A stretch of DNA of 34,924 nucleotides from Anaerolineae bacterium (GTDB lineage Bacteria > Chloroflexota > Anaerolineae > B4-G1 > SLSP01). The stretch lies in contig JAFGFB010000003.1 in NCBI GenBank assembly GCA_016931315.1, forward strand, positions 1 to 34,924, in the 5' to 3' direction. Below the pieces are notes generated by a model. It ran no database searches. It was not told where the DNA came from and saw only the letters and a list, made by a program, of their open reading frames with translations. Made by a program: the position numbers and the translations under genes. Of the stretch, positions 13,853 through 34,550 are shown piece after piece; positions within the stretch are counted from its first letter, which is position 1, and the number at the start of each line of letters is the position of its first letter.

Positions 13853-14482
13853 TCAGCCCTGCTGTAATGCCTCCAGCAGGCGCTGCATCTGCAAGCCATT
13901 GGTCAAATCGCCGCGTGTACGTTCCAATACCGCCCGCAGTTGATCCACCCGGTGCCGTAAGCCGCCGGTAAGCGCATCAGGATAATCGAATGACATTAGC
14001 ACTTCATATACAGAATCCATAATCGCCAGCAAGCGCTCGGCTTCCGTCATCTGCCCGCGGCGCATGCAATCCAGGCATCGCCGGCGCAATTCGCTAGCCG
14101 CTTCACACAAGCCGTTGAGATAAGCCGCATAAGGCACAGCCAGCTCCATGGGCGAAGGGAGCGTGCGATTCGCCACCAGCACCAAGGTGAGATGCGCTTC
14201 CACCAGCTCCTTGAGGGCATCCTGGGTATAGCCGGCATAAAACAAATCGGGATAAGGCTCAAGCGCCGCACGAATCTCATTTGCCATCGCATCAGCCTCA
14301 GCCAGAATAGACTGAGCGGACTCCCACTCCTCGCGATGTCCGGCGCGGATTGCCTGTGAACAGAGCCGGATGAGCTCCCGGCTCTGGTTTAACACCTGGT
14401 CACGCGCCGCATTGCGAGGGCGCCAATCCTCCTGCACCGCCTCAGCCAAGCCATCCAGCCAGGTATCCAGATTGAGTGTCAT
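13853..14482 (-). CDS. Translin/TRAX-family protein (candidate RNA-binding or RNase subunit)
   Basis: This 209-residue, all-helical protein carries the translin family signature throughout: RDQVLNQSRELIRLCSQAIR near the N-terminus, FYAGYTQDALKELVEAH at 81-97, YAAYLNGLCEAASELRRRCL at 118-137, and FDYPDALTGG followed by RVDQLRAVLERTRGDLT at 165-194. Translin and TRAX form ring-shaped octamers that bind nucleic acid. TRAX subunits are RNases using a Glu-x-x-Glu pair and an Asp. Here Glu92 and Glu95, and possibly Asp180 and Glu187, could fill those roles (inference from motif position). The family is best known from eukaryotes and archaea; archaeal members are often mislabelled haloacid dehalogenase. 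The ATG directly abuts the stop of the DUF3467 gene, so the two are translationally linked. Confidence 0.9.
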   Translation of the reverse strand: MTLNLDTWLDGLAEAVQEDWRPRNAARDQVLNQSRELIRLCSQAIRAGHREEWESAQSILAEADAMANEIRAALEPYPDLFYAGYTQDALKELVEAHLTLVLVANRTLPSPMELAVPYAAYLNGLCEAASELRRRCLDCMRRGQMTEAERLLAIMDSVYEVLMSFDYPDALTGGLRHRVDQLRAVLERTRGDLTNGLQMQRLLEALQQG

Positions 14483-16256: not shown

Positions 16257-17045
16257 TCAACGCATTCGCCGGCGCCATTCAGCCTTAACTTCAATAGCAT
16301 CCCAATTATCCCGATGAATGAGGAAGTCCAACACCAGCCGGGTGAACTTGCTGGTGTCTTCCAACATCGGGAAATGCTGCACGCCATCCATCAACAGGAT
16401 GTTGACATTCTCCTCCAGACCATCTATTACCCCATCCACAGGAACCTGAATGAGTGGGTCCTGCGTGCCATATAAGAACATGACCGGAATATCCAGGTCT
16501 TCGAGCAGCAGACTCAAGTCATAGTGTGCCACATTGCGCAAGGTATTGAGCACGGCGTCCCCATCGGTTTTTGCGGCTTCCAAAGCAACTTCCTGATATT
16601 CGTTGAGACGCCGCCCGAGAATACGTGCGGCAGGGTTCTCACCGCCGCCAAACCCGGTCAAGGTGCGGCTCATGCTCTCGGCAGCAAAGGGAACGTTAGT
16701 CAACAGCAATTGCTCTACCTGATTCGGATAGCGCTGCGCAAAGTGCAGAGCGACCAACCCGCCGAGACCGTGCCCCACCAGAGGAATTTGGGGCAGCCCC
16801 ATCTGTTGCATAAACAGCGCTACTTGCGCCACATAGCTATCAATAGAGTAGCGCTCACGGTTCTTATCGGAATCCCCAAAGCCCCAGAAATCCAAGGCAT
16901 AAGCGCGATAGGATGAGGATAAGGCCACCATCGAAGGCACCCAATAGCGCCATGAGCCGAGCCAGCCATGCAGGAAGAGCAGCGGTTTACCGCGGCCCAA
17001 AGCCTCATAATGCGCGAGGCTGCTTTCCAGAATGACGGCACTCAT
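16257..17045 (-). CDS. Alpha/beta-hydrolase-fold protein lacking the nucleophilic Ser
   Basis: The 262-residue alpha/beta hydrolase has the oxyanion-hole HGWLGSWRYW (26-35), LDFWGFGDSD (51-60), a nucleophile elbow, an acid region TQDPLIQ and a catalytic-His region GVQHFPML. The elbow reads GHGLGG (91-96), so Gly93 (codon GGT) replaces the usual Ser. As read, ordinary Ser-hydrolase chemistry is not expected. It could be a binding protein or regulator, use another reaction, or reflect a one-base sequence error (AGT would give Ser). It is paralogous to the protein encoded at 25,876-26,661; the two share YEA-x-GRGKP and YALDFWGFG. It follows the CheY-like regulator by 19 bases. Confidence 0.88.
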   Translation of the reverse strand: MSAVILESSLAHYEALGRGKPLLFLHGWLGSWRYWVPSMVALSSSYRAYALDFWGFGDSDKNRERYSIDSYVAQVALFMQQMGLPQIPLVGHGLGGLVALHFAQRYPNQVEQLLLTNVPFAAESMSRTLTGFGGGENPAARILGRRLNEYQEVALEAAKTDGDAVLNTLRNVAHYDLSLLLEDLDIPVMFLYGTQDPLIQVPVDGVIDGLEENVNILLMDGVQHFPMLEDTSKFTRLVLDFLIHRDNWDAIEVKAEWRRRMR

Positions 17046-17064: not shown

Positions 17065-17442
17065 TTATGCCTTACCGTGCTGCTGCAGGATTTGCTTCAC
17101 CTGTTTGATCAACTCATCAGGGGCAAAAGGCTTGAGAATGTATTGCGCCGCGCCCGCGCTCAGTCCCTCTTGAATCTCGCTTTCTTGACCCTTGGCTGAA
17201 AGGAAAACGACAGGAGTCGTCTGCATTTCTGGAATCTGCATCAGCGCCGCGCACGCCTGATAACCCGTCATCCGCGGCATGCGCACATCCATCAAGATCA
17301 AATCTGGTTTCACCTGCGGAGCTTTCTCCACCGCATCGGCCCCATTCACCGCCAGTTCCACCTCGAAACCGGCAAAACGCAAGGTAAAAGCGATCAGCTC
17401 GCGAATATCACGTTCATCTTCTGCTACAAGGATTTTCACCAT
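17065..17442 (-). CDS. CheY-like single-domain response regulator
   Basis: This 125-residue REC domain has no output domain. Acidic residues Glu8 and Asp9, the phospho-acceptor Asp52 (LILMDVRMP), the Ser/Thr switch region (FLSAKG) and the Lys in ILKPF are all present, so it should be phosphorylatable. It starts only three bases after the giant histidine kinase gene ends, which makes that kinase the likely phospho-donor. Without an output domain it must act by protein-protein contact or as a phosphate relay or sink. Confidence 0.96.
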   Translation of the reverse strand: MVKILVAEDERDIRELIAFTLRFAGFEVELAVNGADAVEKAPQVKPDLILMDVRMPRMTGYQACAALMQIPEMQTTPVVFLSAKGQESEIQEGLSAGAAQYILKPFAPDELIKQVKQILQQHGKA

Positions 17443-17445
17443 AAC

Positions 17446-20400
17446 TCACTCCTTCTTCCCACTCGCCCCTTCTACCAGGCGGGAAATCTCCGCGCCCAGC
17501 TCTTCCATCGAGAAGGGCTTGGTCACGAAGCGCAATGCACCCAACGCCTCAAGATCGGGCGGGACTCCATCCTCCGGATCCGCAAAACCCGTCATCACTA
17601 CCACAGGAATACTGGCTGTATCAGGGTTTTGCTTCAATGCCTTCAACACCTGATAGCCATCCATGCCTGGCAGGTGCAAGTCCAACATAATCAACGCCGG
17701 CGGGTGCTCCTGTGCCACCCGCAAGGCGCGCTCCCCACGTGTGGCAGTCCGCACCTGCAAACCCTGCGCGCGCAGAGCGGTTCGCAGCAAATTCAGAGTA
17801 TCGCGGTCATCATCCACCACAAGCACCGTCCCCTTGCTAGAGAGGACACGGTTGATGACATTCAATAGTCGCGGCTCATCCAAGGGCTTGGTGAAATAGT
17901 CCACCGCTCCCAACCGCAAACCACGATCTTTGTCAAAGACAACCGAGACAATCACCACCGGAATTGCGGCAGTATCCGGATTGCGCTTAAGTAACTGCAA
18001 AACCTCAAAGCCATCCAGATCAGGCAGGCGAATATCCAGTGAAATCAAGTCCGGTTGCTCGGTCCGCGCCAGATGCAGCGCTGTCTCACCCGAATTCGCC
18101 AGCAGGACGCGGTGTCCTTCATGTTCCAGGGTAAGCCGCAACAACTCAGCGACCTCAGGGTCATCCTCCACAACCAGAATCGTGGCCCCCAAATTCACTC
18201 CAAAGCCCACAGGAGATTGCCCCACTGGCGCGGTAGATTCGCCCTCTGCCAGCGGGAATGTCGCGGTGAAGACACTTCCTTCACCGGGTTCGCTCTCAAC
18301 GAAAATGCGCCCGCCATGCATCTGCACAAGCGAAGCCGTAATCGCCAGTCCCAAGCCCGTTCCGCCCGCCTCCAATACCAGCGGATCATCCACACGATAG
18401 AAGCGCGAGAAAATGCGGCTTTGATCCTCAGGCGAGATGCCAATGCCCGTATCTATCACGGCAACGTGAAGCATCTCTTCTTTCACATAAGCCTGAACCG
18501 TCACCTCACCCCCAACCGGGGTGTATTTATACGCATTGCCCACCAGGTTGGTCAAAATCTGTACCACACGATCAGGGTCCCCCCACACCATGGGCAGCAC
18601 CGCGGGCGCGACAGTGTGAATACGCAGTCCTTTCTCTTCAATCTTGGGCGTCAGCGTCAGAACCACCTGAGAGATTAATTCGCCCATATCCACCGCGCGG
18701 CAGTTGAGTTCCACTTTGCCGCCCTCGATGCGCGACATATCCAACAAATCATTGACCAGGCTCGTCAACCGATCGGCATTCGTGCGAATGACGTTGAGAA
18801 ATTGTAACTGCATCTCATTGAGTGTGCCGGTGGCACCCATGAGCAGTAAATCCACATAGCCCTTCACCGAAGTCATGGGAGTGCGCAATTCGTGTGAGAC
18901 AGTAGATACAAATTCCGTCTTAGCGCGATCGGCTTCAACTTCGGCAGTGATATCACGGAATGCCGATACGACTCCCAGAAATTCGCGACTCGGCGAAATC
19001 ACCGGGGAAAGGTGCATACTCACCACTTGCCGCCCAATCTCCAGGCGATCCGACAGGAATTCACCGCTCTGATAGCTTGCCGATTCTGCGCGCCACACCT
19101 CGACCTGCTCCAACCAGCCGCGCACCTTGGCGCCGTACAGCCCTAATACATCGCCCAAGGAACGCCCGACGGCCTGGTTTCGACCTAAAGACAAAATCCG
19201 TTCCGCTGCAGCGTTGAACAGAATGATCTTTCCCGTAGCCTCCGCTACCAACACACCATCGGCAATGCCCTCCAGAATGGCCTGGCTACGGGCACTCTCA
19301 TTCTGCTGTGTGCGCAACATCACACCCACACGCTCAGCCTGCTCGCGAATCAACCGGTAGAGCTCGGCATTGTTGAGCGCATGTCCCACCTGTACTGCCG
19401 CAGCCTCCACCAGACGCTGGTCGCCGATATCAAACGCGCCCAATTCTTCAGAGTGCAGGAAAATCACCCCTGCCGTTTCATCCGCCGCCATGATGGGCAC
19501 CGCTAACACGGAGCGCGTGTTATCAGCGATGGGAATCCAGCGCTCATCAGCCTTGACATCCGGCACAATGGCGGACTGCCGGTTCTTGAGGACCCATCCC
19601 ACCAGCCCCTCGTTGCGATTGTAAACGGCCCGCACGCCGCCGGGCGGGACCGATTTTTCTCCACCTACGGAAGCCCGGTGCTGTAAATGGCCCGAGTTTA
19701 TATCCAGGAGCAATACCGTGGCGCGCTCAGCATGCACGGCATCCTTGAGCATCGAGACCGTTTTATGCAACACTCGATCAATATCCAGGCTAGCGACCAG
19801 ACCCGAAGCGATTTCGTACAGAATCGTCGAGCGGTCACGCTCATTACGCAGGCTGCCCAGAGCATCCGCGAGTTCTGCGGTGCGCTCTTCTACCCGGCGC
19901 TCCAGCTCTACCGAGAAGTTCTTCACCTCCTCGAACAGCTGGGCATTTTCCACCGCCACCGAGATTTGATCGGCAAGCATAGTGAGTGTGGCCACTTGAA
20001 TCGGCTCGATAGCACTCGTTTGCCGGCGTTCCGCACTCAAGACTCCAACGGTATGCCCCTCAACCTGAAGCGGCACAAGCAAAGCCGATCCGATAGGCAG
20101 CGTACCGGCAACAAAACGCGGATCGCTAGTCACATCATCCAATGCCAGTGGCATTCCAGATGTGACTACCGCACCGACAAGCCCTACGCCCGGCTCTACT
20201 CCAAGGTCTTTGCCGAGGAAATCCAAATCATAACCGGATGAAGCGCGCGGCATAAGAGTTGTTTGACCCCGGGACTGCAAGTGGACAGTCGCATAATCAT
20301 AACCCAGCAAATTTGTGACCGCCTGCGCCACGGTATTGAGGACCATAGAAAGGTCCAACTTGGTGGTAATAGAACGGCTCAACTCGTTAAGCAGCATCAA

Positions 20401-21819
20401 GGTATTCAGCTGCAACTGCAAGTTCTCCACCAGGCGGTTATTGGCGATGGCAACGCCAATTTGTGCCGCAAATAATTCCAAGACTTCCAATGACGTGCGG
20501 GTGGGCGCACGCCCATCCAGCGGCGCGTCTACCGACAAATACCCCAACACATCTCCTTGCGGACTGTAGAGGGGGACAATCAACATATCCTGTGGATGCC
20601 ACATACCAGGAACACGCGTCTCGATAGCCGCCATCTGCGGTTCAAAGACATCAATTTCGCCGCGCCAAATGTGTTGTTGTTCAGCCGGGATATAGTAGCA
20701 GTTGCCCATGCGAAACTGGTCTTGTAGCAATCGGGCAATCTGCGCCCAGGGGCGACGCACCTGCTTGAGACGTTCCAGGTCCGCCAGTGACATGCCGGCG
20801 CCCGCCACCCGCCGCACCATCGCACCCTCTAACACGCTAATGAGCACGATTTCGTAGCCCACGGCTTCCTGAGTGGCATAGGCCATTTCTAACAGCGTAT
20901 CATCCAAAGGGCGATCCGAACGCATGGTTCGCGCAGCTTCCAGCAGCAGCCGCATCTGTTCGGCGCGCTGGCGCATCAGGTTTCCCCGCAACAACTGCTC
21001 CTGGTAACGCCGGTCATTGCCCACAGCCAACGCAGTTTGTGCTGCCAAACCCTCCACAAAACCCACCATTGCAGGAGTCAAGGCATCGGAGCGCCGAGAA
21101 TGCAAGACAATAATTGCTGCCAAACGCCCCTCGTAGAAAACCGGTGACCACAATTCCGTGCGCATGCCCGCGTGGTGCGCCGGCGTTGAGCGCAAACCGG
21201 CAATATCGGGCACATAACGCGTGACAGGCTGGCGCATGAACGCGACCATCGTCGGATCGTTTTCGTGATGGGTGAGCAAATCCTCAAAATCTGCCACCGT
21301 CGCAGCCTCATAACCCTCGGCCATAGCCACTGCGGGTTGATCTCCCCGCCAGAGCCAGATCATCCCCGCATCAGCATGGGTGAAGTTGAGCGCTTCTTCA
21401 AGCACCAGTTGCAGAATATGTCCCAAATCGAGGGTGCTGGCAATCTCGTGAATGATTCGCCGTAATGCCCCCTCAGAATCCAAACGCCGTGCCACCTCTT
21501 GCTCCACTTCGCGGGTGCGTTGCATTTGCAATTGCCACTTTGACGTCAACACAGCGGCGGCTCCCGCCAAAATCCCCGCGTACAACCAATCGGGCAACAG
21601 GGTGGATTTCTGGAACAGGGCAGGAATTGCCAACGCAAATAGAATCAGAGCCACGAGCCACGCACGTCGTTTCCACAGCAAGCCGCCTAAGGCTGCCGGC
21701 AAAATCAGCAAATACAACCCCAAGGGCTGCATACCAGTATAGAGCAGCAACAATACCAAGGCACTGCTCAGTATTACCGCGCCCCATCCTGGCTGAAACG
21801 ACTCTAAACGCTCGCGCAT
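17446..21819 (-). CDS. Giant hybrid histidine kinase (TM-4xGAF-PAS-HisKA-HATPase-2xREC)
   Basis: The protein has 1457 residues. Reading along: about four N-terminal membrane segments (12-95), four GAF-type domains (about 125-265, 295-460, 480-625, 670-820) joined by coiled-coil linkers such as VELERRVEERTAEL near 640, one PAS domain (about 840-955), HisKA with His976 in VSTVSHELRTPM, an HATPase domain (N box near 1091, DTGIG 1123-1127, GTGLGL 1153-1158), and two REC domains with phospho-acceptors Asp1262 and Asp1380 and lysines 1311 and 1434. All catalytic motifs look intact. GAF domains often bind small molecules or chromophores, but the ligands here are unknown. It probably relays phosphate to the CheY-like regulator and perhaps to the REC-GGDNF protein, whose genes flank it. 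Membrane attachment is by the N-terminus only; most sensing would be cytoplasmic. Confidence 0.95.
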   Translation of the reverse strand: MRERLESFQPGWGAVILSSALVLLLLYTGMQPLGLYLLILPAALGGLLWKRRAWLVALILFALAIPALFQKSTLLPDWLYAGILAGAAAVLTSKWQLQMQRTREVEQEVARRLDSEGALRRIIHEIASTLDLGHILQLVLEEALNFTHADAGMIWLWRGDQPAVAMAEGYEAATVADFEDLLTHHENDPTMVAFMRQPVTRYVPDIAGLRSTPAHHAGMRTELWSPVFYEGRLAAIIVLHSRRSDALTPAMVGFVEGLAAQTALAVGNDRRYQEQLLRGNLMRQRAEQMRLLLEAARTMRSDRPLDDTLLEMAYATQEAVGYEIVLISVLEGAMVRRVAGAGMSLADLERLKQVRRPWAQIARLLQDQFRMGNCYYIPAEQQHIWRGEIDVFEPQMAAIETRVPGMWHPQDMLIVPLYSPQGDVLGYLSVDAPLDGRAPTRTSLEVLELFAAQIGVAIANNRLVENLQLQLNTLMLLNELSRSITTKLDLSMVLNTVAQAVTNLLGYDYATVHLQSRGQTTLMPRASSGYDLDFLGKDLGVEPGVGLVGAVVTSGMPLALDDVTSDPRFVAGTLPIGSALLVPLQVEGHTVGVLSAERRQTSAIEPIQVATLTMLADQISVAVENAQLFEEVKNFSVELERRVEERTAELADALGSLRNERDRSTILYEIASGLVASLDIDRVLHKTVSMLKDAVHAERATVLLLDINSGHLQHRASVGGEKSVPPGGVRAVYNRNEGLVGWVLKNRQSAIVPDVKADERWIPIADNTRSVLAVPIMAADETAGVIFLHSEELGAFDIGDQRLVEAAAVQVGHALNNAELYRLIREQAERVGVMLRTQQNESARSQAILEGIADGVLVAEATGKIILFNAAAERILSLGRNQAVGRSLGDVLGLYGAKVRGWLEQVEVWRAESASYQSGEFLSDRLEIGRQVVSMHLSPVISPSREFLGVVSAFRDITAEVEADRAKTEFVSTVSHELRTPMTSVKGYVDLLLMGATGTLNEMQLQFLNVIRTNADRLTSLVNDLLDMSRIEGGKVELNCRAVDMGELISQVVLTLTPKIEEKGLRIHTVAPAVLPMVWGDPDRVVQILTNLVGNAYKYTPVGGEVTVQAYVKEEMLHVAVIDTGIGISPEDQSRIFSRFYRVDDPLVLEAGGTGLGLAITASLVQMHGGRIFVESEPGEGSVFTATFPLAEGESTAPVGQSPVGFGVNLGATILVVEDDPEVAELLRLTLEHEGHRVLLANSGETALHLARTEQPDLISLDIRLPDLDGFEVLQLLKRNPDTAAIPVVIVSVVFDKDRGLRLGAVDYFTKPLDEPRLLNVINRVLSSKGTVLVVDDDRDTLNLLRTALRAQGLQVRTATRGERALRVAQEHPPALIMLDLHLPGMDGYQVLKALKQNPDTASIPVVVMTGFADPEDGVPPDLEALGALRFVTKPFSMEELGAEISRLVEGASGKKE

Positions 21820-21906: not shown

Positions 21907-22800
21907 TCAGGCCTTCCGAACCCGCCTGCGCGCCTCAGCCGCTGCCTCTGTCACCTCACGAATATCCGTGAATGGACCTTCATCCGCCGTAAGCACACCA
22001 ATTTGTAGGCGCATTAGCGGCACCTGTTTTTCTTCGCCATCGCTATCACGGATGACCAAATAGCCCTGCATACGAGTCATGAAATCGTAGTGCGTGCCCA
22101 CATTCTCCTCAAAACGCCGCTCCAGTTCCGCTTTGAGCTGGTTGGCGAGTGTTTTGCGGGTAATCACGATAAAATTGTCCCCACCGATATGACCAATAAA
22201 ATCTTCGGCAGAACCCAGGTTCTCAACCGTCTCGCTGAGCGCCAGTGCGGTGAAACGCAGTACTTCCTCGCCCGCGACAAATCCATAGACCTCATTGAAG
22301 GCATCCAAACCAACAATGCCAATGTAGAGAATCCCCCAATCGGCTAGTCGCAAAAGTTGCCGGAGCTGCTGCTCGATCAGCCTGCCGCTGGGCAAACCGG
22401 TAGTGGGACTGGTCAGGCTCTCGACCTCAGCGCGTTTGATGGTGTTCCTGACCCGCAGGCGCAGTTCCTCGACATCGAAGGGCTTGGTGATATAGTCATC
22501 GGCGCCCAATTCCAGGCCGTGGATTTTATCGCTGCGCTCGTCCTTCTGGGTAAGAAAGAGGATGGGAATGTGGCTCGTGCGCAAGTTGGTGCGCAACTGG
22601 CGACAGACCTCATAGCCATCAATATCGGGTAACATGATATCCAGGACAATAACGTTCGGCAACAATTGCCGCGTCATATCAAGAGCAACACTCCCACGCG
22701 GCGCGACATGCACTTCGTATTCCAACGAGCGGAAATACAACTGCAGCATGTTAGAGATATCGGAATCATCTTCCACTACCAGAATACGACCTTCGCTCAT
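21907..22800 (-). CDS. Response regulator with degenerate GGDEF domain (GGDNF)
   Basis: The 297-residue protein has an intact REC domain (Asp11, Asp12, phospho-acceptor Asp54, Lys106 in ITKPF). It is joined by a short helix to a GGDEF-like domain that begins after LTSPTTGLPSGR, where active enzymes read LTGLPNR. The signature at 206-210 is GGDNF. The Glu needed for metal and GTP chemistry is Asn, so diguanylate cyclase activity is doubtful. Such domains can still bind GTP or c-di-GMP, or act as scaffolds. It lies 87 bases upstream of the giant kinase gene on the same strand and is a likely partner. Confidence 0.93.
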   Translation of the reverse strand: MSEGRILVVEDDSDISNMLQLYFRSLEYEVHVAPRGSVALDMTRQLLPNVIVLDIMLPDIDGYEVCRQLRTNLRTSHIPILFLTQKDERSDKIHGLELGADDYITKPFDVEELRLRVRNTIKRAEVESLTSPTTGLPSGRLIEQQLRQLLRLADWGILYIGIVGLDAFNEVYGFVAGEEVLRFTALALSETVENLGSAEDFIGHIGGDNFIVITRKTLANQLKAELERRFEENVGTHYDFMTRMQGYLVIRDSDGEEKQVPLMRLQIGVLTADEGPFTDIREVTEAAAEARRRVRKA

Positions 22801-22856: not shown

Positions 22857-23927
22857 TCAGTATAAATTCGCCTTAACGCGCGCAATGGTTTCTTCAGGCA
22901 GCTCGCGCTCAAAACTGCGCAAGGCTGCCAGCCGAAACCCATGTTTTTCAGCCAATGCATCTATTTCCTGCATGCGGTCAACGGATAAATTTTTCCCCAA
23001 GGAATAATCCTCAAAGCGACCTTCCAGTGCCAATGCCATGGTCTCAGCCACACAACCAAAGGTCAACGTCGGCGGGGGACCATAATCAAAGCCAAAGTCC
23101 ACTGCTCCGGGCACCTGCACCAACCCACCATCGAATACAAGCACATCATCCCGAGCCTGCGCCACCTGCCACGATACATCCCGTGGACGTGAGACATCGC
23201 AAACCACAGCCCCGCGCCGCAGGTATTCCGGACGCACCAAATATCCGCCCGCGCTGGTCACTGTGATGACCACTTCAGCACGTTGAATATCAGCAACTGC
23301 GGTCGAGAGCTGTAAATCTTTGGCGCCCGCCGCCCGCAAGCGTCCCGCGACAGACTCCAAACGCGGTTGGTCACGGCCAATCAATAACAACGAGCCGACC
23401 TCGCCAGCCAATCCTTCAGCCACCACACCGCCGATAGCGCCAGTCGCGCCGACAACGGCAAGCGTAACTGCCGCAGGCTCGTATTCCATCCGGCGCATCG
23501 CCTCCCGCACCGCGCGAATTGCCAGCGCCGCCGTATAACTATCGCCCGATGTTACCGCAATATCCAGCGCGCGGGCAATGGTTACCCCGCCATCTCCGAC
23601 CACCGAGGTATAGGCCCCCAGGCCCAGAACCTGCGCACCCAGGCGCTCAGCCAATCGCCCCGCGGCGATAATCTTGCGATAGACCTCCCCCGGCGACAAA
23701 TGCAACATCCGCTGTACCGTATACGGCACAGCAATCAACCACCCTTCGATCTCTTTCCCTGTGGCTAACGAGCGAACCCCGGTGACGTGTGAAATATAGA
23801 CAGGGGGCCAAAACCGCGAAAAGAAATCAATCGCAGGTTCCGGCAGCACACGCCCCAAAAGTGGGTATTTGCGCGCCACATCGCGTTTCGCCGACAAAGG
23901 ATGGATGATGAAGGCAAAGGCGTCCAT
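22857..23927 (-). CDS. Long-chain acyl-ACP reductase-like protein (AAR family)
   Basis: The 356-residue protein aligns by eye over most of its length with cyanobacterial acyl-ACP reductase, which makes fatty aldehydes from acyl-ACP with NADPH. Shared blocks are HVTGVRSLATGKEIEGWLI (47-65), LGLGAYTSVVGDGG (101-114), the nucleotide loop VVGATGAIGG (158-167), FDGGLVQVPG (265-274), FGCVAETMALALEGRF (290-305) and SLGKNLSVDRMQEIDALAEK (309-328). Cys292 lies in the FxCxAE motif where the cyanobacterial enzyme carries its thioester-forming Cys, so catalysis is plausible. No aldehyde-deformylating oxygenase gene is in the window, so the aldehyde, if made, would go elsewhere. It sits 14 bases after the beta-helix gene. 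Substrate and product are inferred from homology only. Confidence 0.8.
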   Translation of the reverse strand: MDAFAFIIHPLSAKRDVARKYPLLGRVLPEPAIDFFSRFWPPVYISHVTGVRSLATGKEIEGWLIAVPYTVQRMLHLSPGEVYRKIIAAGRLAERLGAQVLGLGAYTSVVGDGGVTIARALDIAVTSGDSYTAALAIRAVREAMRRMEYEPAAVTLAVVGATGAIGGVVAEGLAGEVGSLLLIGRDQPRLESVAGRLRAAGAKDLQLSTAVADIQRAEVVITVTSAGGYLVRPEYLRRGAVVCDVSRPRDVSWQVAQARDDVLVFDGGLVQVPGAVDFGFDYGPPPTLTFGCVAETMALALEGRFEDYSLGKNLSVDRMQEIDALAEKHGFRLAALRSFERELPEETIARVKANLY

Positions 23928-23941
23928 GAATCATCCAAATC

Positions 23942-25195
23942 CTAACGTGGATAGAGACGCGGGTGCGCAGCATCCGGATTCGGCAATTTCCAGTGATCGC
24001 TATCCTCATAATTAATGTTCCGGTCAATCACCCGGCGCTCCGGTGAAGCAAACAAAAGCACATCCGATTCAATCATCCGTGCCGGGAAAATGATCATTCC
24101 AGAGCCAATACGCACGTTATGACCGACCGCAGAGCCAACCACCGGCATTCCGGTATTCTCCAATTTTCCGGCAAAATGCGAACGAATGGGAATATGGGGC
24201 ACGAGGTTAAAATCAGTAAAAGTATTGCCCGCGCCGATGAATGTACCACGTCCCACCACACACATTTGCAGGCAGGTATTCTGCGCCACCATACAATCTT
24301 CCATGAGCACTGATTCGAACAACGAGGCGCGAAACGGCATAAAAGTTCCATCCCCCACGACACTCAAGAGCAGCTGGCAACCGTGAGAGATATTCACATT
24401 GTTGCCCAGAACACAATTAGCCACCATCGCGCCAGCGCCAATGGTCACATTGTTGCCAATAATAGTCGGGCCCTGAATAATCGCCGTCGGGTCAATCTGA
24501 CAATTCTTACCAATCTGAACCAATCGGGTACTGGCGAGCAATTGTCGGCGCTCCAACATCGCCTGCCACAGCAAGCGCAGATTGAGGCCTAAGTCCTTCT
24601 CCAGTGACTGCTCAAAGCGCGCCCCAATGGAGAAAATGCCAAACATGACATTAGCAAAGAGGATGTGAGTCCAATGCTCGATGGACAGAAATGCCTTGGT
24701 AGGCAGTTGATAGACAAGATCGCCATAAACGTTGGACATGTGGGTAGGGACATGATAATACCCAGCCTCACGCGGTTCCGTGTGCATGAGCAGAGGGCGC
24801 ACTACAGGGTCCACACCATAGGGGTAATACCAGAGATCCGCGACATAGACGTTACCCTGACGCCGAATACCCCGCTGTAAATAGATGGCGTGCCGGGAAA
24901 TAGCCGGGTCATCCAGGTCAAAGGCTACCTGACAGGCTTTGCCGAGTTTCTGTGCGCGGGCAATGAAATCATCAATGAAGGGTTGGTCGAAATAGAGATT
25001 CTCGCGATAGACCAAAGTCTCAATGCGCTCATTGCCAATCTCAGAAATTGAATCTACCTCAACTTCCTCAGTCGTGTAACGTGCCAAAATATCCCGCTGG
25101 TGCAGCCACAGGGGTTTGCCCAACACGCTCAAATCGCGCGCGGGTTCGTTAAATGGCGATAATTTGCGCTTGTCACGCAGGATGATTTTTCGCAC
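23942..25195 (-). CDS. Left-handed beta-helix (hexapeptide-repeat) protein, probable acyl- or nucleotidyl-transferase relative
   Basis: The 417-residue protein starts at a GTG at 25195 with AAGGAAG upstream. Residues about 245-385 form hexapeptide repeats of the [I/V/L]-G-x4 type: IGKNCQIDPTAIIQGP, IIGNNVTIGAGAMV, VLGNNVNISHGC, VVGRGTFIGAG and GHNVRIGSGMIIFP. This predicts a left-handed beta helix, normally trimeric and common in acyltransferases and sugar-phosphate nucleotidyltransferases. The N-terminal 240 residues do not show a clear nucleotidyltransferase signature; they contain a WTHILFANVMFGIFSIGARF helix that may touch membrane. Neighbours suggest a role in lipid or acyl metabolism (inference). 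It is 12 bases from the V4R gene and 14 from the AAR-like gene, so co-transcription is likely. Confidence 0.75.
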   Translation of the reverse strand: MRKIILRDKRKLSPFNEPARDLSVLGKPLWLHQRDILARYTTEEVEVDSISEIGNERIETLVYRENLYFDQPFIDDFIARAQKLGKACQVAFDLDDPAISRHAIYLQRGIRRQGNVYVADLWYYPYGVDPVVRPLLMHTEPREAGYYHVPTHMSNVYGDLVYQLPTKAFLSIEHWTHILFANVMFGIFSIGARFEQSLEKDLGLNLRLLWQAMLERRQLLASTRLVQIGKNCQIDPTAIIQGPTIIGNNVTIGAGAMVANCVLGNNVNISHGCQLLLSVVGDGTFMPFRASLFESVLMEDCMVAQNTCLQMCVVGRGTFIGAGNTFTDFNLVPHIPIRSHFAGKLENTGMPVVGSAVGHNVRIGSGMIIFPARMIESDVLLFASPERRVIDRNINYEDSDHWKLPNPDAAHPRLYPR

Positions 25196-25207
25196 AGAAT
25201 CGCTTCC

Positions 25208-25879
25208 TTATGCAGGCACAACAGGCATCCGCCCGATGCGAAACATACAGGCAGGATCACCCAACCCCATACACGTCACTTCCTCAACTGGGAAAGACCG
25301 TCCGCCGCTAGCCCAATACAACGTTTCCGTAAGAAGCCCTGTCACCAAAGAGCAAACTGGATAGGTTGTCTGCAAACCCCAACAGATAGCGCAGCGTTCC
25401 ATAATCCACAGATAACACTCCGGTGTTTCCGCCAGGCGCACGCGCTGATCAGAATAACGATTCAGAATCTCCGCGAGCACTTCCATACTCAGGCGCACTC
25501 GAAAAGAAAGGGGCAGAATACGAAAAGCCACATCCGCAACGCTCAGCAAGCCCCCAAAATCCTTGATGCCATAGCGGAAAAGGGCATGCCCCGAGCGCAG
25601 GGAGAGTTGCTGCCCACTGCGCACGCCATACATCTCATCAATTGCGGCAGTCAGTTGCGCGATTGCCGAAAACGGGAGTGCCGGTTCAAAATTCGGCGGT
25701 AACGTTTGATCCGCCAACTCGGGTAGCCGGGCCAGGGTCAACACTGCTCGCAGGCTATTGGCTCCCAGCACATCTTCCAACGAGAGCAGCAGGATACGCA
25801 CAAGTTTATTGGGAAAATACCCCTCCTCGTGCGCAGCATGCGCCGCGACCCCATCTTCAAGCCGCTGCGCCGTGCTCAC
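25208..25879 (-). CDS. V4R (4-vinyl-reductase, BchJ-like) domain protein
   Basis: The 223-residue protein starts with GTG and overlaps the hydrolase stop by four bases (GTGA). The N-terminal region is helical. The C-terminal part (about 120-216) is a V4R domain with six Cys: Cys155, Cys163 and Cys166 (RCAICWG), Cys176 (PVCSLVTG), Cys203 and Cys211 (TCMGLGDPACMFRIG). V4R domains bind small hydrophobic ligands and often a metal. They occur in BchJ of phototrophs, in regulators such as XylR/DmpR, and in archaeal regulators. No photosynthesis gene is visible here, so a sensor or small-molecule-binding role is more likely than bacteriochlorophyll reduction. It is in the same tight cluster as the AAR-like gene. 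Confidence 0.85.
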   Translation of the reverse strand: MSTAQRLEDGVAAHAAHEEGYFPNKLVRILLLSLEDVLGANSLRAVLTLARLPELADQTLPPNFEPALPFSAIAQLTAAIDEMYGVRSGQQLSLRSGHALFRYGIKDFGGLLSVADVAFRILPLSFRVRLSMEVLAEILNRYSDQRVRLAETPECYLWIMERCAICWGLQTTYPVCSLVTGLLTETLYWASGGRSFPVEEVTCMGLGDPACMFRIGRMPVVPA

Positions 25880-26661
25880 TGCAATTCCAGAAAATCCCGC
25901 ACAACTTGATTGAAATGGTCTTTTTCGTCCAACATGGGGAAATGCGCCGAACCATCAAAATAGTGGAGTAGAGCATTTTTTACACCGGCTTGCAATACGC
26001 GGCCCTGTTTGGGGTCCACGATATTGTCCTTCTTGCCGTAAACTCCCATGGCTGGAATGCGCAATTCGTGCAGGTGCGGGCGCAAGTCAGTGAAGCGCAA
26101 ATCCCGAATACTGTTTGAAAAAGAATCCATCGTGGTGCTGGACAAATCCTTTTGAAACATTTCGTACCACGTACGCCAATCCCGCGCATAAAACCGCGAG
26201 GCAATCCGCATACCAAAGGCAAAAATCCGCGGGAAACGATACAGCAGCGCAGCAATCTGGCGGTTACCCGCCAGTTTGAGAGGAAAAGCCAAGCCGGAAC
26301 CAACAATGGGGGACCCGACTACCGCGACGCGCGAAACGCGTTGGGGATACATCAAAGCCAGGCTCAACGATACCGTCCCCCCCATAGAGTGCCCCATTAC
26401 GGGCGCCTTTTCCAGCCCCAAACGCTCCATGAACTGGTTCACCATCTCCACGTACTCCACGACCGAAAAAGCGCCGTGTTTAGCGGATTCACCAAAGCCC
26501 CAAAAATCGAGAGCATAGGCCTTGTATTTGGGCGCCAATAGTTGCATGGTAGGTAGCCAATAGCTCCACGAACCCAACCAACAATGCAGCAAGATAACAG
26601 GCTTGCCGCGCCCAATGGCTTCGTAGTGCACAATTCCACGATCCGTAACAATGGCTACCAT
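25876..26661 (-). CDS. Alpha/beta-hydrolase-fold enzyme
   Basis: Taking the ATG at 26661 gives 261 residues, matching the 262 of its paralog at 16,257-17,045; the frame is open for 17 more codons back to a TTG. The nucleophile elbow GHSMGG (90-95, Ser92) is intact, LDFWGFGESA follows strand 3, and the acid (KKDNIVDP) and His (GSAHFPMLDE) regions are present. The usual oxyanion HG is HC (Cys27, codon TGT), which is unusual. Substrates could be esters, lactones or acyl groups; the sequence does not decide. It overlaps the V4R gene by four bases and would be the first gene of the long minus-strand cluster. The start codon has only a weak upstream ribosome site. Confidence 0.88.
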   Translation of the reverse strand: MVAIVTDRGIVHYEAIGRGKPVILLHCWLGSWSYWLPTMQLLAPKYKAYALDFWGFGESAKHGAFSVVEYVEMVNQFMERLGLEKAPVMGHSMGGTVSLSLALMYPQRVSRVAVVGSPIVGSGLAFPLKLAGNRQIAALLYRFPRIFAFGMRIASRFYARDWRTWYEMFQKDLSSTTMDSFSNSIRDLRFTDLRPHLHELRIPAMGVYGKKDNIVDPKQGRVLQAGVKNALLHYFDGSAHFPMLDEKDHFNQVVRDFLELQ

Positions 26662-26753: not shown

Positions 26754-27293
26754 TTACTCTCCGCTTTGATCCATCACTTCAAGGATGGAATACAATAACT
26801 CCAACAGTACCTGCTTCACGCTTTCACGATTACGCGCCACACAAGGCACCACCTTGATTCCAGGCTCGATCTTGAGCACAATGCGCAGGTCGTCGGGAGG
26901 CCAGGCATCTTTCATATCCTGCTTGTTGGCAGCCACGATATAAGGCACGGGAGAATAGGCGCGGAAGGTATCCAAAATACGCTGCGCCTCGCGAAAGGTC
27001 TCTGGGCGAGTGCTATCAACCATCACCACAAAGCCCAACATACCCTCGGAGAGAATTTCCCACATAAAATCGAAACGCCGTTGCCCTGGTGTGCCAAAGA
27101 GATAGAGAATCAGTTCGTCATCAATCGTGATACGACCAAAGTCCATTGCCACTGTAGTGGCTTCCTTGATGCGCTCAGCGCGGCTTGAGATTTTCTTCTC
27201 AGTTGAAACCACATCAATTTCGCTGACGCTCTGGATAAACTCCGTCTTGCCAGAGGAGAAGGGACCTGTCACAACGATTTTTAAGGTCTGCAT
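26754..27293 (-). CDS. MglA/Ras-like small GTPase
   Basis: The 179-residue GTPase has a P-loop GPFSSGKT (10-17), a switch II region FGTPGQRRF (66-74) and an NKQD base-recognition motif (123-126). MVDSTRPETF lies where Ras proteins have the beta-4 region. Bacterial proteins of this type, related to MglA, act as nucleotide-controlled switches for polarity, motility or other signalling. The start lies three bases after the DUF4388 gene stop, a pairing common in several phyla. No Roadblock/MglB activator gene is seen next to it. A T-run follows the stop codon but without a clear hairpin. Confidence 0.93.
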   Translation of the reverse strand: MQTLKIVVTGPFSSGKTEFIQSVSEIDVVSTEKKISSRAERIKEATTVAMDFGRITIDDELILYLFGTPGQRRFDFMWEILSEGMLGFVVMVDSTRPETFREAQRILDTFRAYSPVPYIVAANKQDMKDAWPPDDLRIVLKIEPGIKVVPCVARNRESVKQVLLELLYSILEVMDQSGE

Positions 27294-27296
27294 GAG

Positions 27297-28151
27297 TTAG
27301 AGCTCCCGGATGCGGTCAATCAACTTATGAATCAGACCACGTTTAACATCGGGACGACGCACCGTCGCATCCACGCGCTCTCTTTCCGCAGTCTTGGTGC
27401 TCCGTGGTTCACCCACTGAGGCATCGGTCACCTGCCGTGGCGGACGGATAATCTCTACCAGGCCCGCTTGCAACAATCCATAAACAATCTTGCGAATCTG
27501 AAATTCGCTCATATTGTTATTCTGTGCAATTTGTTGGATAGTATTGCGGGGATTCACGAAGGAAATCACGCGCCACTCCTCAACCGTCAGATTCACATCG
27601 CGGAGGGGCGTATTCGGTTTCTCGGCAAACTTAAGCGCGACATCAAGCGAAGGTAATTCATCTTGCAGGCGTTCCCACTCCTTGAGTCGCCGGCTTCCTT
27701 CCATGATCACGTTCTCCAACGCAATCGAGGTAACCAGCTTACCCTGAATCGGCAACTCTGCCGGTTCAAAACGGAATGTTCCGGTATTCCAGGAGAACAC
27801 CCGATAGACGAGGTTGACAATGTGCTGACGCACAATCTGCACTATTTCTTGTTGTTGAATGTGCCCCGATTGAATAAGCATCATTGCCACATCTCGGTCA
27901 GGCTTACCTGCCGCATTCGCCGTAATGACACGCACCTGCTCAGCAGTCAATTTGCCCGCTTGTTGCAACAAAGGCAACAGCGATATTTCCTTCCCATCGG
28001 CAGCTGCATATACCAGCGCGCCCTCACGGAAGCACAGATAGGCTTTGTTTTGTGAACCTTCAAGATAAAGTGTCCCGGTCTTGCGAGCCAGATTGATCAG
28101 GTTCAGCAGTTGCGTGATGCCGAAATCCTTCAAATTGCCTTTTAGCGCCAT
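27297..28151 (-). CDS. DUF4388 (PATAN-type) protein with C-terminal winged-helix region
   Basis: The 284-residue protein opens with MALKGNLKDFGITQLLNLIN and ARKTGTLYLEGS, a characteristic DUF4388 start, with CFREGALVYA following. A second block at about 110-150 (VYRVFSWNTGTFRFEPAELP) is also typical. Residues about 180-240 resemble a winged helix (TIQQIAQNNNMSEFQIRKIV). A basic tail of about 40 residues ends the protein. DUF4388 domains occur in signalling proteins, often beside MglA-like GTPases, and are thought to mediate protein interactions. The ATG at 28151 has AAGGA nine bases upstream and the promoter at 28,211-28,238. It forms a two-gene unit with the GTPase. Confidence 0.9.
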   Translation of the reverse strand: MALKGNLKDFGITQLLNLINLARKTGTLYLEGSQNKAYLCFREGALVYAAADGKEISLLPLLQQAGKLTAEQVRVITANAAGKPDRDVAMMLIQSGHIQQQEIVQIVRQHIVNLVYRVFSWNTGTFRFEPAELPIQGKLVTSIALENVIMEGSRRLKEWERLQDELPSLDVALKFAEKPNTPLRDVNLTVEEWRVISFVNPRNTIQQIAQNNNMSEFQIRKIVYGLLQAGLVEIIRPPRQVTDASVGEPRSTKTAERERVDATVRRPDVKRGLIHKLIDRIREL

Positions 28152-30523: not shown

Positions 30524-31807
30524 ATGCCCGAGGAGCGAAGTTCTCGCATTGCGGGATTCTATAATTTAGATTTCAATGCACGCCTGCGACTGCTCACTGA
30601 GTGGGCGGCGCTGAACGCCGAAGAGCAAGCAAAGCTCTCCGGCGCTTTGGGTTTGAATGTCGAGCGCGGCACGCACATGATTGAGAACGTTGCCGGCGTG
30701 TATGGCTTACCGCTGGGCATCGCTACCAACTTCAAAGTGAATGGACGCGACGTGCTGGTTCCGATGGTCATCGAGGAACCCTCAGTGGTTGCTGGTGCTT
30801 CGCTGGCGGCAAAACTGGCGCGCGCAGGAGGCGGCTTCAGCGCGAGCGCCGACTCACCGGTCATGATTGGGCAGCTGCAAGTAGTGGACCTGGATGACCT
30901 GGAAGTGGCACGCGCGCAAATCCTGGAGGAGAAGGAGACACTCCTTGCGTTGGCACATGCGGTGGACCCGGTATTGGTCCGGTTGGGTGGTGGCGCGCGG
31001 AATTTGGAGGTACGCCTGCTGCCTGATACTGCGGTCGGTCCCATGCTTATCCTGCACTTGCTCTACGATGTCCGCGACGCGATGGGCGCCAATGCTATCA
31101 ACACCGCCTGCGAACGCCTCGCGCCGGAAGTCGAGCGACTCACAGGGGGCAGGGTCTTCCTGCGCATTCTCAGCAATCTGGCGGACCAGCGCTTGGCGCG
31201 CGCCGAGGTCAGCATTCCAGAAAGTGCGTTAGCCTTCAATGATTTCACCGGTGAATCTGTCGCTGCGGGCATCGAGAAGGCCTGGGCTTTTGCTGCCGCG
31301 GACCCCTATCGCGCCACAACCCACAACAAAGGTATTATGAACGGCATTGATGCCGTGGTGCTGGCCACAGGCAATGACTGGCGCGCCATCGAAGCCGGAG
31401 CGCATGCCTATGCCGCCCGTGATGGGCGCTACACCAGCCTGAGCACCTGGCGGCGCAATGGACAGGGCCATCTCAACGGCAATTTAGAGCTGCCCCTGGC
31501 GCTGGGCATTATTGGAGGGGCAACCCGCGTTCACCCCACAGCACAAGTGGCGCTCAAGATTCTAGGTGTGCAAACAGCCCGCGAATTGGCGGAGATCGTT
31601 GCAAGCGTAGGCCTGGCGCAAAATCTCGCCGCCATCCGCGCCCTGGCAACGGAGGGCATTCAGAAGGGGCACATGGGACTCCATGCTCGTCAGGTTGCCA
31701 TGGCGGCTGGCGCCACGGGTGAAGCCATCGAATGCATCGCACAGACAATGATCGCTGAAGGCGTCATCCGACTGGATCGCGCCGCTGCACTATTGAAGCT
31801 TTTATAG
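30524..31807 (+). CDS. mvaA: Class II HMG-CoA reductase
   Basis: The 427-residue enzyme carries the class II signature ENVAGVYGLPLGIATNF (54-70) and the catalytic residues Glu84 or Glu85 (IEEPSVV), Lys269 (HNKGIMNG), Asp285 (GNDWRA) and His387 (GLHARQ). DAMGAN (185-190) contributes to coenzyme binding. Reductases of this class interconvert HMG-CoA and mevalonate. Because HMG-CoA synthase and thiolase genes follow in the same operon, synthesis of mevalonate for isoprenoids is the likely direction. GGAG lies five bases before the ATG. The next gene starts nine bases after the stop. The class is bacterial while the following three genes are of archaeal type, so the operon is mixed. NADH versus NADPH use cannot be told. 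Confidence 0.96.
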   Translation: MPEERSSRIAGFYNLDFNARLRLLTEWAALNAEEQAKLSGALGLNVERGTHMIENVAGVYGLPLGIATNFKVNGRDVLVPMVIEEPSVVAGASLAAKLARAGGGFSASADSPVMIGQLQVVDLDDLEVARAQILEEKETLLALAHAVDPVLVRLGGGARNLEVRLLPDTAVGPMLILHLLYDVRDAMGANAINTACERLAPEVERLTGGRVFLRILSNLADQRLARAEVSIPESALAFNDFTGESVAAGIEKAWAFAAADPYRATTHNKGIMNGIDAVVLATGNDWRAIEAGAHAYAARDGRYTSLSTWRRNGQGHLNGNLELPLALGIIGGATRVHPTAQVALKILGVQTARELAEIVASVGLAQNLAAIRALATEGIQKGHMGLHARQVAMAAGATGEAIECIAQTMIAEGVIRLDRAAALLKLL

Positions 31808-31816
31808 GAGGCAACT

Positions 31817-32881
31817 GTGGCAGAACGCTGGACCATGCATCCACAACGCCCGGTCGGCATTATTGGTTATGGCTCTTATGTACCAATGTATCGCCTGCCC
31901 AATACGGAAATCAGCCGCATTTGGGGCAGTGGCGATGAGGGCGGCCCAATCAAGGAAAAAGCCGTCGCCGGATTGGATGAAGATACCATTACCATCTCTA
32001 TCGAAGCCGCACGCAACGCGCTAAGCCGGGCAGGCATTGACCCGGAAGACATCCGCGCAGTTTGGGTAGGCAGCGAATCGCACCCGTACGCGGTTAAGCC
32101 CAGCTCAACCGTGGTCGCGGAAGCCATTGGCACGTCACCCTTTCACCTGGCGGCGGATCTGGAATTCGCCTGCAAAGCCGGCACCGAAGCCTTACAAGCC
32201 GCTATCGGATTGGTGGGCGCGGGTATGGCGGAGTATGCCATGGCTATCGGCGCGGATACGGCGCAGGGGCGCCCTGGTGACGCACTGGAATATACCGCAG
32301 CCTGTGGCGGCACGGCCTTCATTGTCGGACCGGCTGAAGAGGCGCTCGCGATACTGCGCGGTTCGCTCTCTTTTGTGAGCGACACGCCCGACTTCTGGCG
32401 CCGGGCCTATCAACACTACCCCAGCCATGGAGGACGCTTCACAGGCGAACCCGCTTACTTCCACCACATTCAATCAGCAGCAGATGCGCTCATGGGCGAA
32501 ATGGGCCTGGAAGCCAAAGATTTCACGTATGCGATTTTCCACCAACCCAACGTCAAATTCCCGCAGCGGGTAGGCAAACGCCTGGGCTTTACCAAAGAAC
32601 AACTTGAGCCAGGCCTGATCAGTAACATCATTGGCAATACGTATGCCGGTGCGGCGATAACGGGCTTCTCAGCCACCCTCGATATCGCCAAGCCGGGAGA
32701 CCGCATACTGATGGTCAGTTTCGGTTCTGGAGCAGGTTCCGACGCCTCCGTATGGGAAGTCACCGAAGCTCTGGAAGAACGGCGGCACAAAGCCCCGCTT
32801 GTCGCGGATTATATCGCCCGGCGGGTCGAAATTGACTACGGGCTGTACGTCCGTTATCGCAGCAAGATATTGGTGAAGTAG
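31817..32881 (+). CDS. Archaeal-type HMG-CoA synthase
   Basis: The 354-residue thiolase-fold enzyme starts at a GTG with AGGAGG six bases upstream. It begins [17 protein letters not shown] as archaeal HMG-CoA synthases do. The catalytic Cys119 ([12 protein letters not shown]), His242 ([11 protein letters not shown]) and a candidate Glu87 ([13 protein letters not shown]) are present. The enzyme condenses acetoacetyl-CoA with acetyl-CoA to HMG-CoA. It is about 350 residues, shorter than eukaryotic or Gram-positive MvaS (about 390-520), and lacks their sequence pattern. Its operon with an archaeal-type thiolase and a DUF35 protein matches archaeal gene order, where the three form a channeling complex. 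Confidence 0.94.
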
Positions 32882-32890
32882 GAGGCATAG

Positions 32891-34048
32891 ATGCGAGAAG
32901 TTGCCATTATCGGTATCGGCCAAACTCCCGTGCGGGAGCATTGGCCCATCAGCCTTCGGCATCTGGCGCTAGAAGCCTCACTCAATGCGCTGCACGATGC
33001 CAACATTGAAAGAGTGGATGCCGTCTATGTCGGCAATATGATGTCGGGTGAAATCACCGGTCAAGAACATCTCGGTGCGCTGCTTGCCGACAGCCTGGGA
33101 CAAACGGGCGCCGAAGCATTGAAAGTCGAAGCCGCTTGCGCCTCAGGCTCGGCTGCATTTCGCGTGGGCATGATGGCAGTTGCCAGCGGCATGAATGACC
33201 TGGTATTGGTGACCGGTGTAGAGAAAATGACCGACACCTCGGGACGCGAAACCACAGCGGCGCTGGCAATGGCTGCCGATGCGGAATATGAGGTCGCACA
33301 AGGAGTCTCGTTCGTGAGCCTTAATGCGCTGCTGATGCGGCGCTACATGTATGAATACGGCTGGGAGCGTAAAGACTTCGCCAATTTCGTCGTCACGGCA
33401 CATTCCAACGGGATGAACAATCCCAATGCAATGTTCCACATGAAAGTAACCCCGGAACAATATGCCCGTTGCGCCACCATCGCCGACCCGGTTGGCTTAC
33501 TCGACGCCTCGCCGGTCTGCGATGGCGCCGCAGCAGTCATCCTGGCGCCGGCTGAATATGCCCGGACGTTAAGCCCGGCGCCCATACGGGTACGTGGCTC
33601 AGGCATCGCCACGGCGCCGGTAGCCGTCCATGACCGCAAAGACCCGCTGGCATTGGAAGCTGCGCGGCTCTCAGCCAAACGCGCCTACGATATGGCCAAA
33701 GTCAAACCGCAGGATATCAGTTTCTTCGAATTGCACGACGCCTTTACCATCATGTCGGCGCTAAGCCTGGAAGCCTCGGGCTTTGCTGAGCGTGGGCAGG
33801 GCGTGCGCCTGGCGCTTGACGGAGAAATCACCCTGCAAGGGCGGCTTCCCATTGCTACCATGGGCGGGCTGAAATCGCGGGGACATCCTGTGGGCGCTAC
33901 AGGTATGTACCAGATAGTCGAGACGGTTCTGCAACTACGCGGGCTTGCGGGGAAGAATCAGCTGCCCAATGCACGCCTGGGAATGGTGCAGAATATTGGC
34001 GGAAGCGGCGCAACCATCATCACGACGATTTTGGAAGCAATGAGTTAA
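32891..34048 (+). CDS. Archaeal-type acetyl-CoA C-acetyltransferase (thiolase)
   Basis: The 385-residue thiolase has the acyl-accepting Cys83 (EAACASGSAAF), His282 (FELHDAF) and His332 (KSRGHPVGATG). Where classical biosynthetic thiolases have a second catalytic Cys in a C-G-G motif, this protein reads NIGGSGAT (368-375), as in archaeal and SCP2-like thiolases. It would make acetoacetyl-CoA from two acetyl-CoA, the unfavourable first step of the mevalonate pathway. AGGAGG lies before the ATG at 32891, nine bases after the HMG-CoA synthase stop. Coupling to HMG-CoA synthase by complex formation would help pull the reaction (known for archaeal homologs, inferred here). Confidence 0.94.
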   Translation: MREVAIIGIGQTPVREHWPISLRHLALEASLNALHDANIERVDAVYVGNMMSGEITGQEHLGALLADSLGQTGAEALKVEAACASGSAAFRVGMMAVASGMNDLVLVTGVEKMTDTSGRETTAALAMAADAEYEVAQGVSFVSLNALLMRRYMYEYGWERKDFANFVVTAHSNGMNNPNAMFHMKVTPEQYARCATIADPVGLLDASPVCDGAAAVILAPAEYARTLSPAPIRVRGSGIATAPVAVHDRKDPLALEAARLSAKRAYDMAKVKPQDISFFELHDAFTIMSALSLEASGFAERGQGVRLALDGEITLQGRLPIATMGGLKSRGHPVGATGMYQIVETVLQLRGLAGKNQLPNARLGMVQNIGGSGATIITTILEAMS

Positions 34049-34136
34049 ATTGTAGGGTGTGCCACGCAAAAAGAGAAAGTCAGACGTAGCACACACAACG
34101 GATCACAATGTCTTATACTCGGAAAGGAGAAATCTC

Positions 34137-34550
34137 ATGGAAGGAAAAGTTGCACACGATTGGCGGTTGAGGGGTCAGCGGTATCGCCTGGAGGGAGAGG
34201 AATGTCCTCATTGCAAGGCAAAAATCTTCCCCCCACGCGATATCTGCCCGGAATGCAAGAGACCGGCAAAGGAACCCTACCGCCTCAGCGGTCGCGGCGA
34301 AGTTTATACCTTTAGCACGCTGAACAGCGCGCCGGAGGGCTTTGAGAATTACACCCCCTACACCGTGGCGCTGGTCAAACTAGAAGAAGGTCCCATGATC
34401 ACCGCGCAGCTCACCGATGTGGCGCCGGAAGATGTGCGCATCGGGATGCCAGTGGAAATGGTCACCCGCAAGCTCCGCGCCCAGGGTGACGAAGGCACCA
34501 TCATTTACGGCTACAAGTTCCGCCCTACGGGGTTGGGACACGCGCACTAA
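34137..34550 (+). CDS. DUF35 Zn-ribbon/OB-fold protein, thiolase-HMGS scaffold
   Basis: I chose the ATG at 34137 because GGAAAGGAG lies just upstream, giving 137 residues; 26 extra codons upstream look unlike the family. The N-terminal helix is followed by a rubredoxin-like zinc ribbon with Cys23, Cys26, Cys37 and Cys40 (CPHCKAKIF and CPECKRP), then an OB-fold (GRGEVYTFSTLNSAPEGF, PYTVALVKLEEGP, IGMPVEMV). In archaea a DUF35 protein bridges thiolase and HMG-CoA synthase and shares their CoA-binding pocket. The gene order here suggests the same role. An 88-base gap separates it from the thiolase gene, with no convincing promoter in it. A strong terminator follows. Confidence 0.93.
   Translation: MEGKVAHDWRLRGQRYRLEGEECPHCKAKIFPPRDICPECKRPAKEPYRLSGRGEVYTFSTLNSAPEGFENYTPYTVALVKLEEGPMITAQLTDVAPEDVRIGMPVEMVTRKLRAQGDEGTIIYGYKFRPTGLGHAH

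Follow-up and report, generated by a model that had tools for sequence, protein, structure and literature searches.

A conserved gene block of Anaerolineae that places an acyl-thioester reductase-like gene beside GTPase, V4R and two-component signalling genes

Gene content and conservation of the block

The window analysed here, i.e., the whole stretch of 34,924 nucleotides of contig JAFGFB010000003.1 from an Anaerolineae bacterium, carries on its minus strand a run of genes which begins with a DUF4388 gene (start at 28151), includes a response regulator and a kinase, and extends down to about position 16257. The gene order is DUF4388-GTPase-hydrolase-V4R-HEX-reductase-response regulator-giant GAF histidine kinase, with the following features:

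27297..28151, minus strand: DUF4388 (PATAN) protein; C-terminal region weakly winged-helix-like
26754..27293, minus strand: small Ras-like GTPase, MglA type; motifs GPFxxGKT, GTPGQ and NKQD
25876..26661, minus strand: alpha/beta hydrolase; Ser92 (GHSMGG), Asp212 and His240 invariant
25208..25879, minus strand: V4R protein; model pLDDT 93; four conserved Cys (163, 166, 176, 203)
23942..25195, minus strand: HEX, 417 aa; nucleotidyltransferase-like N-terminal domain and left-handed beta-helix, a GlmU/ST0452-like architecture
22857..23927, minus strand: acyl-thioester (acyl-ACP/CoA) reductase-like protein, 356 aa; predicted active-site Cys292; NAD(P)-loop GATGAIG at 160-166
21907..22800, minus strand: response regulator with a degenerate GGDEF domain (GGDNF)
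17446..21819, minus strand: hybrid histidine kinase, 1457 aa; GAF, PAS, HisKA, HATPase and receiver domains
17065..17442, minus strand: single-domain response regulator at the end of the block, conserved there in a subset of families
16257..17045, minus strand: second alpha/beta hydrolase, related to the first, at the block end and conserved in a subset of families

The four genes from hydrolase to reductase, on which the initial annotation had focused, do lie at the places and on the strand that it gave, with a 4-base overlap between hydrolase and V4R, 12 bases separating V4R from HEX and 14 bases separating HEX from the reductase. The hydrolase start is best placed at 26661, because MVAIVTDRGIVHYE matches the family start MSSIVTDQGIVHYE. 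Pfam and NCBIfam agreed on the families of the block proteins, with Pfam matches to Abhydrolase_1 (E 9e-30), V4R (E 3.5e-10) and Hexapep (E 1e-12). A promoter and terminator scan of the locus gave no excess over shuffled sequences. Elsewhere in the window, HMG-CoA reductase, HMG-CoA-synthase-like, thiolase and OB/Zn-ribbon genes form a single run (30524-34550, plus strand), a mevalonate-pathway cluster of archaeal-like arrangement, and a bacterial protein with a Translin-family match (29.8 bits versus a Pfam cut-off of 25.9) is encoded at 13853-14482 on the minus strand.

Among 199 genomes of the class that were scanned, 81 contained a reductase relative, either standalone (about 360 aa) or fused (about 690-760 aa). 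At the 56 standalone loci mapped, some of them cut by contig ends, HEX was found in 53, the response regulator in 49 (in a few cases some way off), the GTPase and the hydrolase in 48 each, DUF4388 in 44 and V4R in 36. Median gaps between block neighbours were 29-104 bases, and the core order was held in about 18 families, as counted from the maps, while the outer flanks varied. HEX adjoined the reductase in 78 of 80 named loci, mostly from Anaerolineae MAGs, and the full seven-gene order was present in 46 of the 80. Relatives thus keep the four-gene block, but its proposed status as a self-contained acyl-product pathway was not sustained, since conservation of the enzyme genes is about matched by that of the GTPase, DUF4388, response regulator and kinase genes. 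In keeping with the annotation's remark that no such pathway had been described, no operon with this gene combination was found in the literature searched; an operon in which an acyl-thioester reductase stands next to a Ras-like GTPase, a V4R protein and a two-component sensor is apparently undescribed.

Parts of the block also occur apart from one another. At loci L032 and L050 the reductase is present and the block absent, and some lineages have a block without V4R, with V4R located elsewhere in the genome. Two Anaerolineae loci (L203 and L204, in genomes G291 and G396) retain DUF4388-GTPase-hydrolase-V4R-HEX with no reductase adjoining HEX, and G291 yielded no reductase at any other place either. 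The occurrence of blocks without V4R or without an adjacent reductase means that the parts are not all interdependent. Genome G130 has the block split between two loci, L220 with DUF4388-GTPase-hydrolase-V4R and L076 with HEX-reductase-regulator-kinase, a separation suggestive of a module made of two halves. HEX was found outside the class as well, in other Chloroflexota. At loci L192, L194-L196 and L202 (Chloroflexus-, Roseiflexus-, Herpetosiphon-like and others), it is followed by the response regulator and the giant GAF kinase and lacks the reductase, with V4R just upstream in some. In the Chloroflexus-, Roseiflexus- and Herpetosiphon-like loci, hydrolase and GTPase do not lie beside HEX either. 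Because this HEX-regulator-kinase core occurs without it, the reductase is a frequent effector and not the defining part of the module: it is dispensable, and HEX-regulator-kinase is the older core.

The reductase and its fused relatives

Profile searches place the reductase in the AAR/PigE-N thioester-reductase superfamily, with the putative nucleophilic Cys and the dinucleotide loop kept. It matched the PigE model NF053554 with 212.9 bits (E 9e-63), below the full-length equivalog cut-off and with the alignment ending at position 354 of the 837 in the model. The AAR model TIGR04058 gave 102.7 bits (E 2e-29), short of its curated cut-off of 449.7. Its best PDB match was PigE 4ppm (residues 4-352, E 7e-37, or 2e-56 with the family profile); the corresponding values for AAR 6jzq were residues 12-336, E 6e-25 and 2e-44. 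By sequence, the PigE reductase domain, and not AAR, stands closest among characterised proteins, so that the AAR likeness originally proposed holds as a family relation, but not as the nearest kinship. As AAR and PigE themselves were not placeable in the reductase tree (branches over 3.7), which broadly tracks the families, we make no claim as to which of them is its sister. Glutamyl-tRNA reductase, shikimate dehydrogenase and SDR identities were rejected, their matches being much weaker and confined to the dinucleotide domain.

Cys292 (FGCVAE) aligned in register with AAR C294, which holds the acyl chain as a thioester (PMC7089970), and with Cys296 of the PigE N-terminal domain, which carries out thioester reduction (PMC8341465). 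Both the Cys and the Glu of CxAE were invariant across the 56 standalone and 13 fused relatives compared, in line with the thioester-forming Cys of the initial annotation, and the dinucleotide-loop glycines were kept. From this homology and the invariant Cys, the protein is predicted, with good confidence, to reduce an acyl thioester to an aldehyde. The PigE N-terminal domain (prodigiosin) and the TamH reductase domain resemble the block protein over its residues 4-352 with the Cys aligned (PMC8341465), whereas the block protein ends at 356 aa without a fused PLP aminotransferase and is encoded in a signalling operon, not in a pigment cluster. Relatives borne on plasmids carry the annotation of class III aminotransferase, i.e., they are PigE-like. 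With AAR (6JZQ/6JZU) it shares a similar length, the dinucleotide loop, the C294 equivalent and, in 54 of the 56 standalone relatives, an Arg at the position of R189, the NADPH-phosphate arginine. It differs with regard to the ADO partner: of R73, R79, K80 and Y247, four AAR residues whose mutation abolishes ADO binding (PMC7089970), R73 and Y247 are not conserved in standalone relatives, while R79 and K80 are mostly kept. A search for ADO itself in 150 of the class's genomes (taken to be G000-G149 among the 199), the window's own included, found none, although the Synechococcus control was recovered; its absence, already remarked upon for the locus, thus extends to this set.

There is no obvious aldehyde-using gene in the block (no aminotransferase, alcohol dehydrogenase or ADO), and no PKS or NRPS genes were detected among the window proteins scanned. 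No ACP was found with TIGR00517 in the window's genome, which is 89% complete, while five relatives have one; assembly incompleteness is perhaps the reason. In genome G208, a block-type standalone reductase outside the block (L205:1616-3452) lies directly beside a PlsC-type acyltransferase gene, with a patatin-like gene, assigned by eye, on its other side.

The fused Chloroflexota reductases (about 690-760 aa) belong to this superfamily by their C-terminal domain, with 34-43% identity within the class, but they form a separate clade with full support (100/100), carry an extra N-terminal domain which gave no match to anything, and lie outside the block. WS/DGAT was present in 20 of the 22 genomes with a fused reductase versus 6 of the 128 without (Fisher p 1e-17, only indicative since the genomes are related). 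No association was observed for the standalone reductase (5 of 46 genomes against 21 of 104 without it), and four of those five genomes also have a fused reductase. One fused reductase gene overlaps a WS/DGAT gene, and others are near Fe-ADH or AMP-ligase genes; L209:8213-11802, L210:1691-10510 and L060:2561-9082 are loci of these kinds, WS/DGAT neighbours included. These neighbourhoods and the co-occurrence assign the wax role to the fused kind, which probably represents the wax-ester reductases of Chloroflexota. The distribution of ADO and WS/DGAT lends no support to wax or hydrocarbon synthesis as the block's main task, and the acyl-product pathway first envisaged sits poorly both with the link of WS/DGAT to another, fused reductase and with the survival of the module without the block reductase.

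V4R, GTPase and HEX proteins

V4R domains in general are ligand sensors, and the block protein matched PF02830 with 40.2 bits, above the gathering cut-off of 31. The fold of its model (pLDDT 93) matched H-NOX, PoxR V4R, TRAPP Bet3 and palmitate-bound TRAPPC3, with H-NOX ahead of TRAPP. A haem H-NOX identity was provisionally rejected, as no conserved His was evident in spite of the similar fold and the conserved residues are Cys: positions 166, 176 and 203 were invariant in the family alignment, and 163 nearly so. The fold and this four-Cys motif are common to the V4R/Bet3-TRAPPC3/H-NOX superfamily (PMC10933270), and the motif is a probable metal site, resembling the Zn site described in PoxR and Thor-TRAPPC3 (PMC10933270). 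Since V4R-fold relatives with cavities bind phenols or palmitate (PMC10933270), the protein is likely a hydrophobic-ligand binder, as had been suggested. Unlike these relatives, it is a standalone protein in a GTPase/acyl-reductase operon.

The genomic context of V4R points in a further direction. Out of 20 loci examined, 11, from 11 genomes including the window's own, showed Roadblock-V4R-response regulator in that order, and four others showed V4R-response regulator. The unit in the window's genome (L212:114-2055, contig C151) encodes a Roadblock/LC7 protein, a V4R protein and a degenerate-GGDEF response regulator, paralogous to parts of the block, and G208 has a single run of DUF4388-GTPase-Roadblock-V4R-HEX-hydrolase-Roadblock (L197). 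These units and the G208 run are the strongest evidence for reading V4R as a signalling component; it looks like a signalling partner, which fits better than a BchJ-like helper.

With regard to the GTPase, GTPGQ and NKQD were present in 48 of 48 relatives and the P-loop in 46. Roadblock (MglB) proteins are known MglA regulators (PMC4316618), and a Roadblock gene was found in 17 of 17 genomes; in the window's genome it lies beside the second V4R gene and not in the block. The MglA/Roadblock and Streptomyces conservon systems likewise combine an MglA-type GTPase with a histidine kinase or response regulator, and a PATAN protein is encoded near some MglA genes, as in the block (PMC4316618). The block differs from them in adding V4R, nucleotidyltransferase-like/beta-helix and acyl-reductase genes, a combination which was not found described.

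The HEX model had a pTM of 0.83, with moderate confidence for the beta-helix (pLDDT about 60-75), and its best structural match was ST0452, a sugar-1-phosphate nucleotidyltransferase/acetyltransferase (E 8e-7, TM about 0.5). It shares the nucleotidyltransferase-like fold and the left-handed beta-helix with GlmU-type enzymes, but not their G-x-G-T-R nucleotide loop, the family consensus starting with IIRDxRxIxPFNEPARDLRVLNKPLW; nucleotidyl transfer is therefore doubtful. His359, invariant in the family, could be a catalytic residue in acyl transfer. No HEX relatives were found on plasmids or viral contigs, hence there is no sign of mobility.

Possible roles of the block

We tentatively favour, as quite possible, the view that the locus encodes an acyl-thioester reductase module under signal control, in which two-component and GTPase signalling would govern an effector that makes a fatty (or other) aldehyde. 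Judging from AAR and PigE chemistry, Cys292 would take over the acyl group from ACP or CoA, and NAD(P)H would then release it as aldehyde. Gene order suggests that the place and time of reduction would be set by the GAF kinase together with the GGDEF-degenerate regulator and the MglA-type GTPase. V4R, from its fold and context, may bind a hydrophobic ligand, which could be the acyl substrate, the product or some related lipid, and signal its presence to the GTPase/response-regulator circuit. HEX would be the constant partner of regulator and kinase, as acyl/sugar transferase or scaffold, and the hydrolase may remove or edit an ester product. The likely output would be a regulated change in membrane or envelope lipids (fatty aldehyde or alcohol) and not bulk hydrocarbon or wax. 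This view is favoured by the identity of the reductase with its Cys, the conserved order with short gaps, the HEX-regulator-kinase core, the split block of G130, the Roadblock-V4R-response regulator units, the V4R fold and the link of WS/DGAT to another reductase. Counting against it are the lack of an obvious aldehyde-using gene in the block, the missing ACP in the window's genome, the moderate confidence of the HEX beta-helix model and the incomplete interdependence of the parts.

A dedicated operon for fatty aldehyde, alcohol, wax or hydrocarbon, where V4R carries the aldehyde and hydrolase and HEX finish the product, would account for the homology to AAR/PigE, the adjoining hydrolase and beta-helix enzymes, and the G208 relative beside a PlsC-type acyltransferase. 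We consider it unlikely in view of the absence of ADO from the 150 genomes, the scarcity of WS/DGAT in standalone-reductase genomes and its overlap there with fused reductases, the similar conservation of the signalling genes, and the persistence of the block in G291 without a reductase. Like PigE and TamH, the reductase might instead accept a specialised acyl thioester other than a fatty one, for a small-molecule signal or pigment pathway with its other enzymes elsewhere. The twofold higher score of the PigE model and the PigE-like annotation of plasmid-borne relatives speak for such a substrate, but the protein has neither an aminotransferase domain nor such a neighbour, the window proteins scanned include no PKS or NRPS, and we regard this option as distinctly improbable.

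Other readings concern the grouping itself. V4R (Bet3 fold) and Roadblock may regulate the MglA-type GTPase by means of an acyl ligand that the reductase makes or removes, similarly to TRAPP; the proximity of V4R to the GTPase, the eleven Roadblock-V4R-response regulator units, the G208 run with a GTPase and two Roadblocks, the TRAPP-subunit and TRAPPC3 fold matches, and the known role of Roadblock proteins are consistent with this. Nevertheless, H-NOX ranks above TRAPP, V4R domains generally are ligand sensors and in some block lineages V4R is confined to other parts of the genome, making such a module quite unlikely; that it is a bacterial TRAPP-like switch, with acyl-gated V4R and Roadblock controlling the Ras-like GTPase so that lipid state sets GTPase state, is a decidedly long shot. 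Vertical inheritance of an old order without joint function would fit a reductase tree that broadly tracks the families. It appears very improbable, given an order kept across about 18 families while outer flanks change; moreover, the persistence of HEX-regulator-kinase alone and the split block argue that the grouping is not mere inertia.

The comparison also tells two Chloroflexota reductases apart, one linked to wax-ester synthase and the other to the block. The block joins AAR/PigE-type thioester reduction, MglA/Roadblock GTPase signalling and V4R/Bet3 ligand sensing, which are usually studied apart, in a gene order conserved over a bacterial class many of whose members are uncultured. The block thereby offers a testable setting for asking which ligands and signalling partners bacterial V4R proteins have, and whether there is a bacterial parallel to the eukaryotic TRAPP association of V4R, GTPase and Roadblock.
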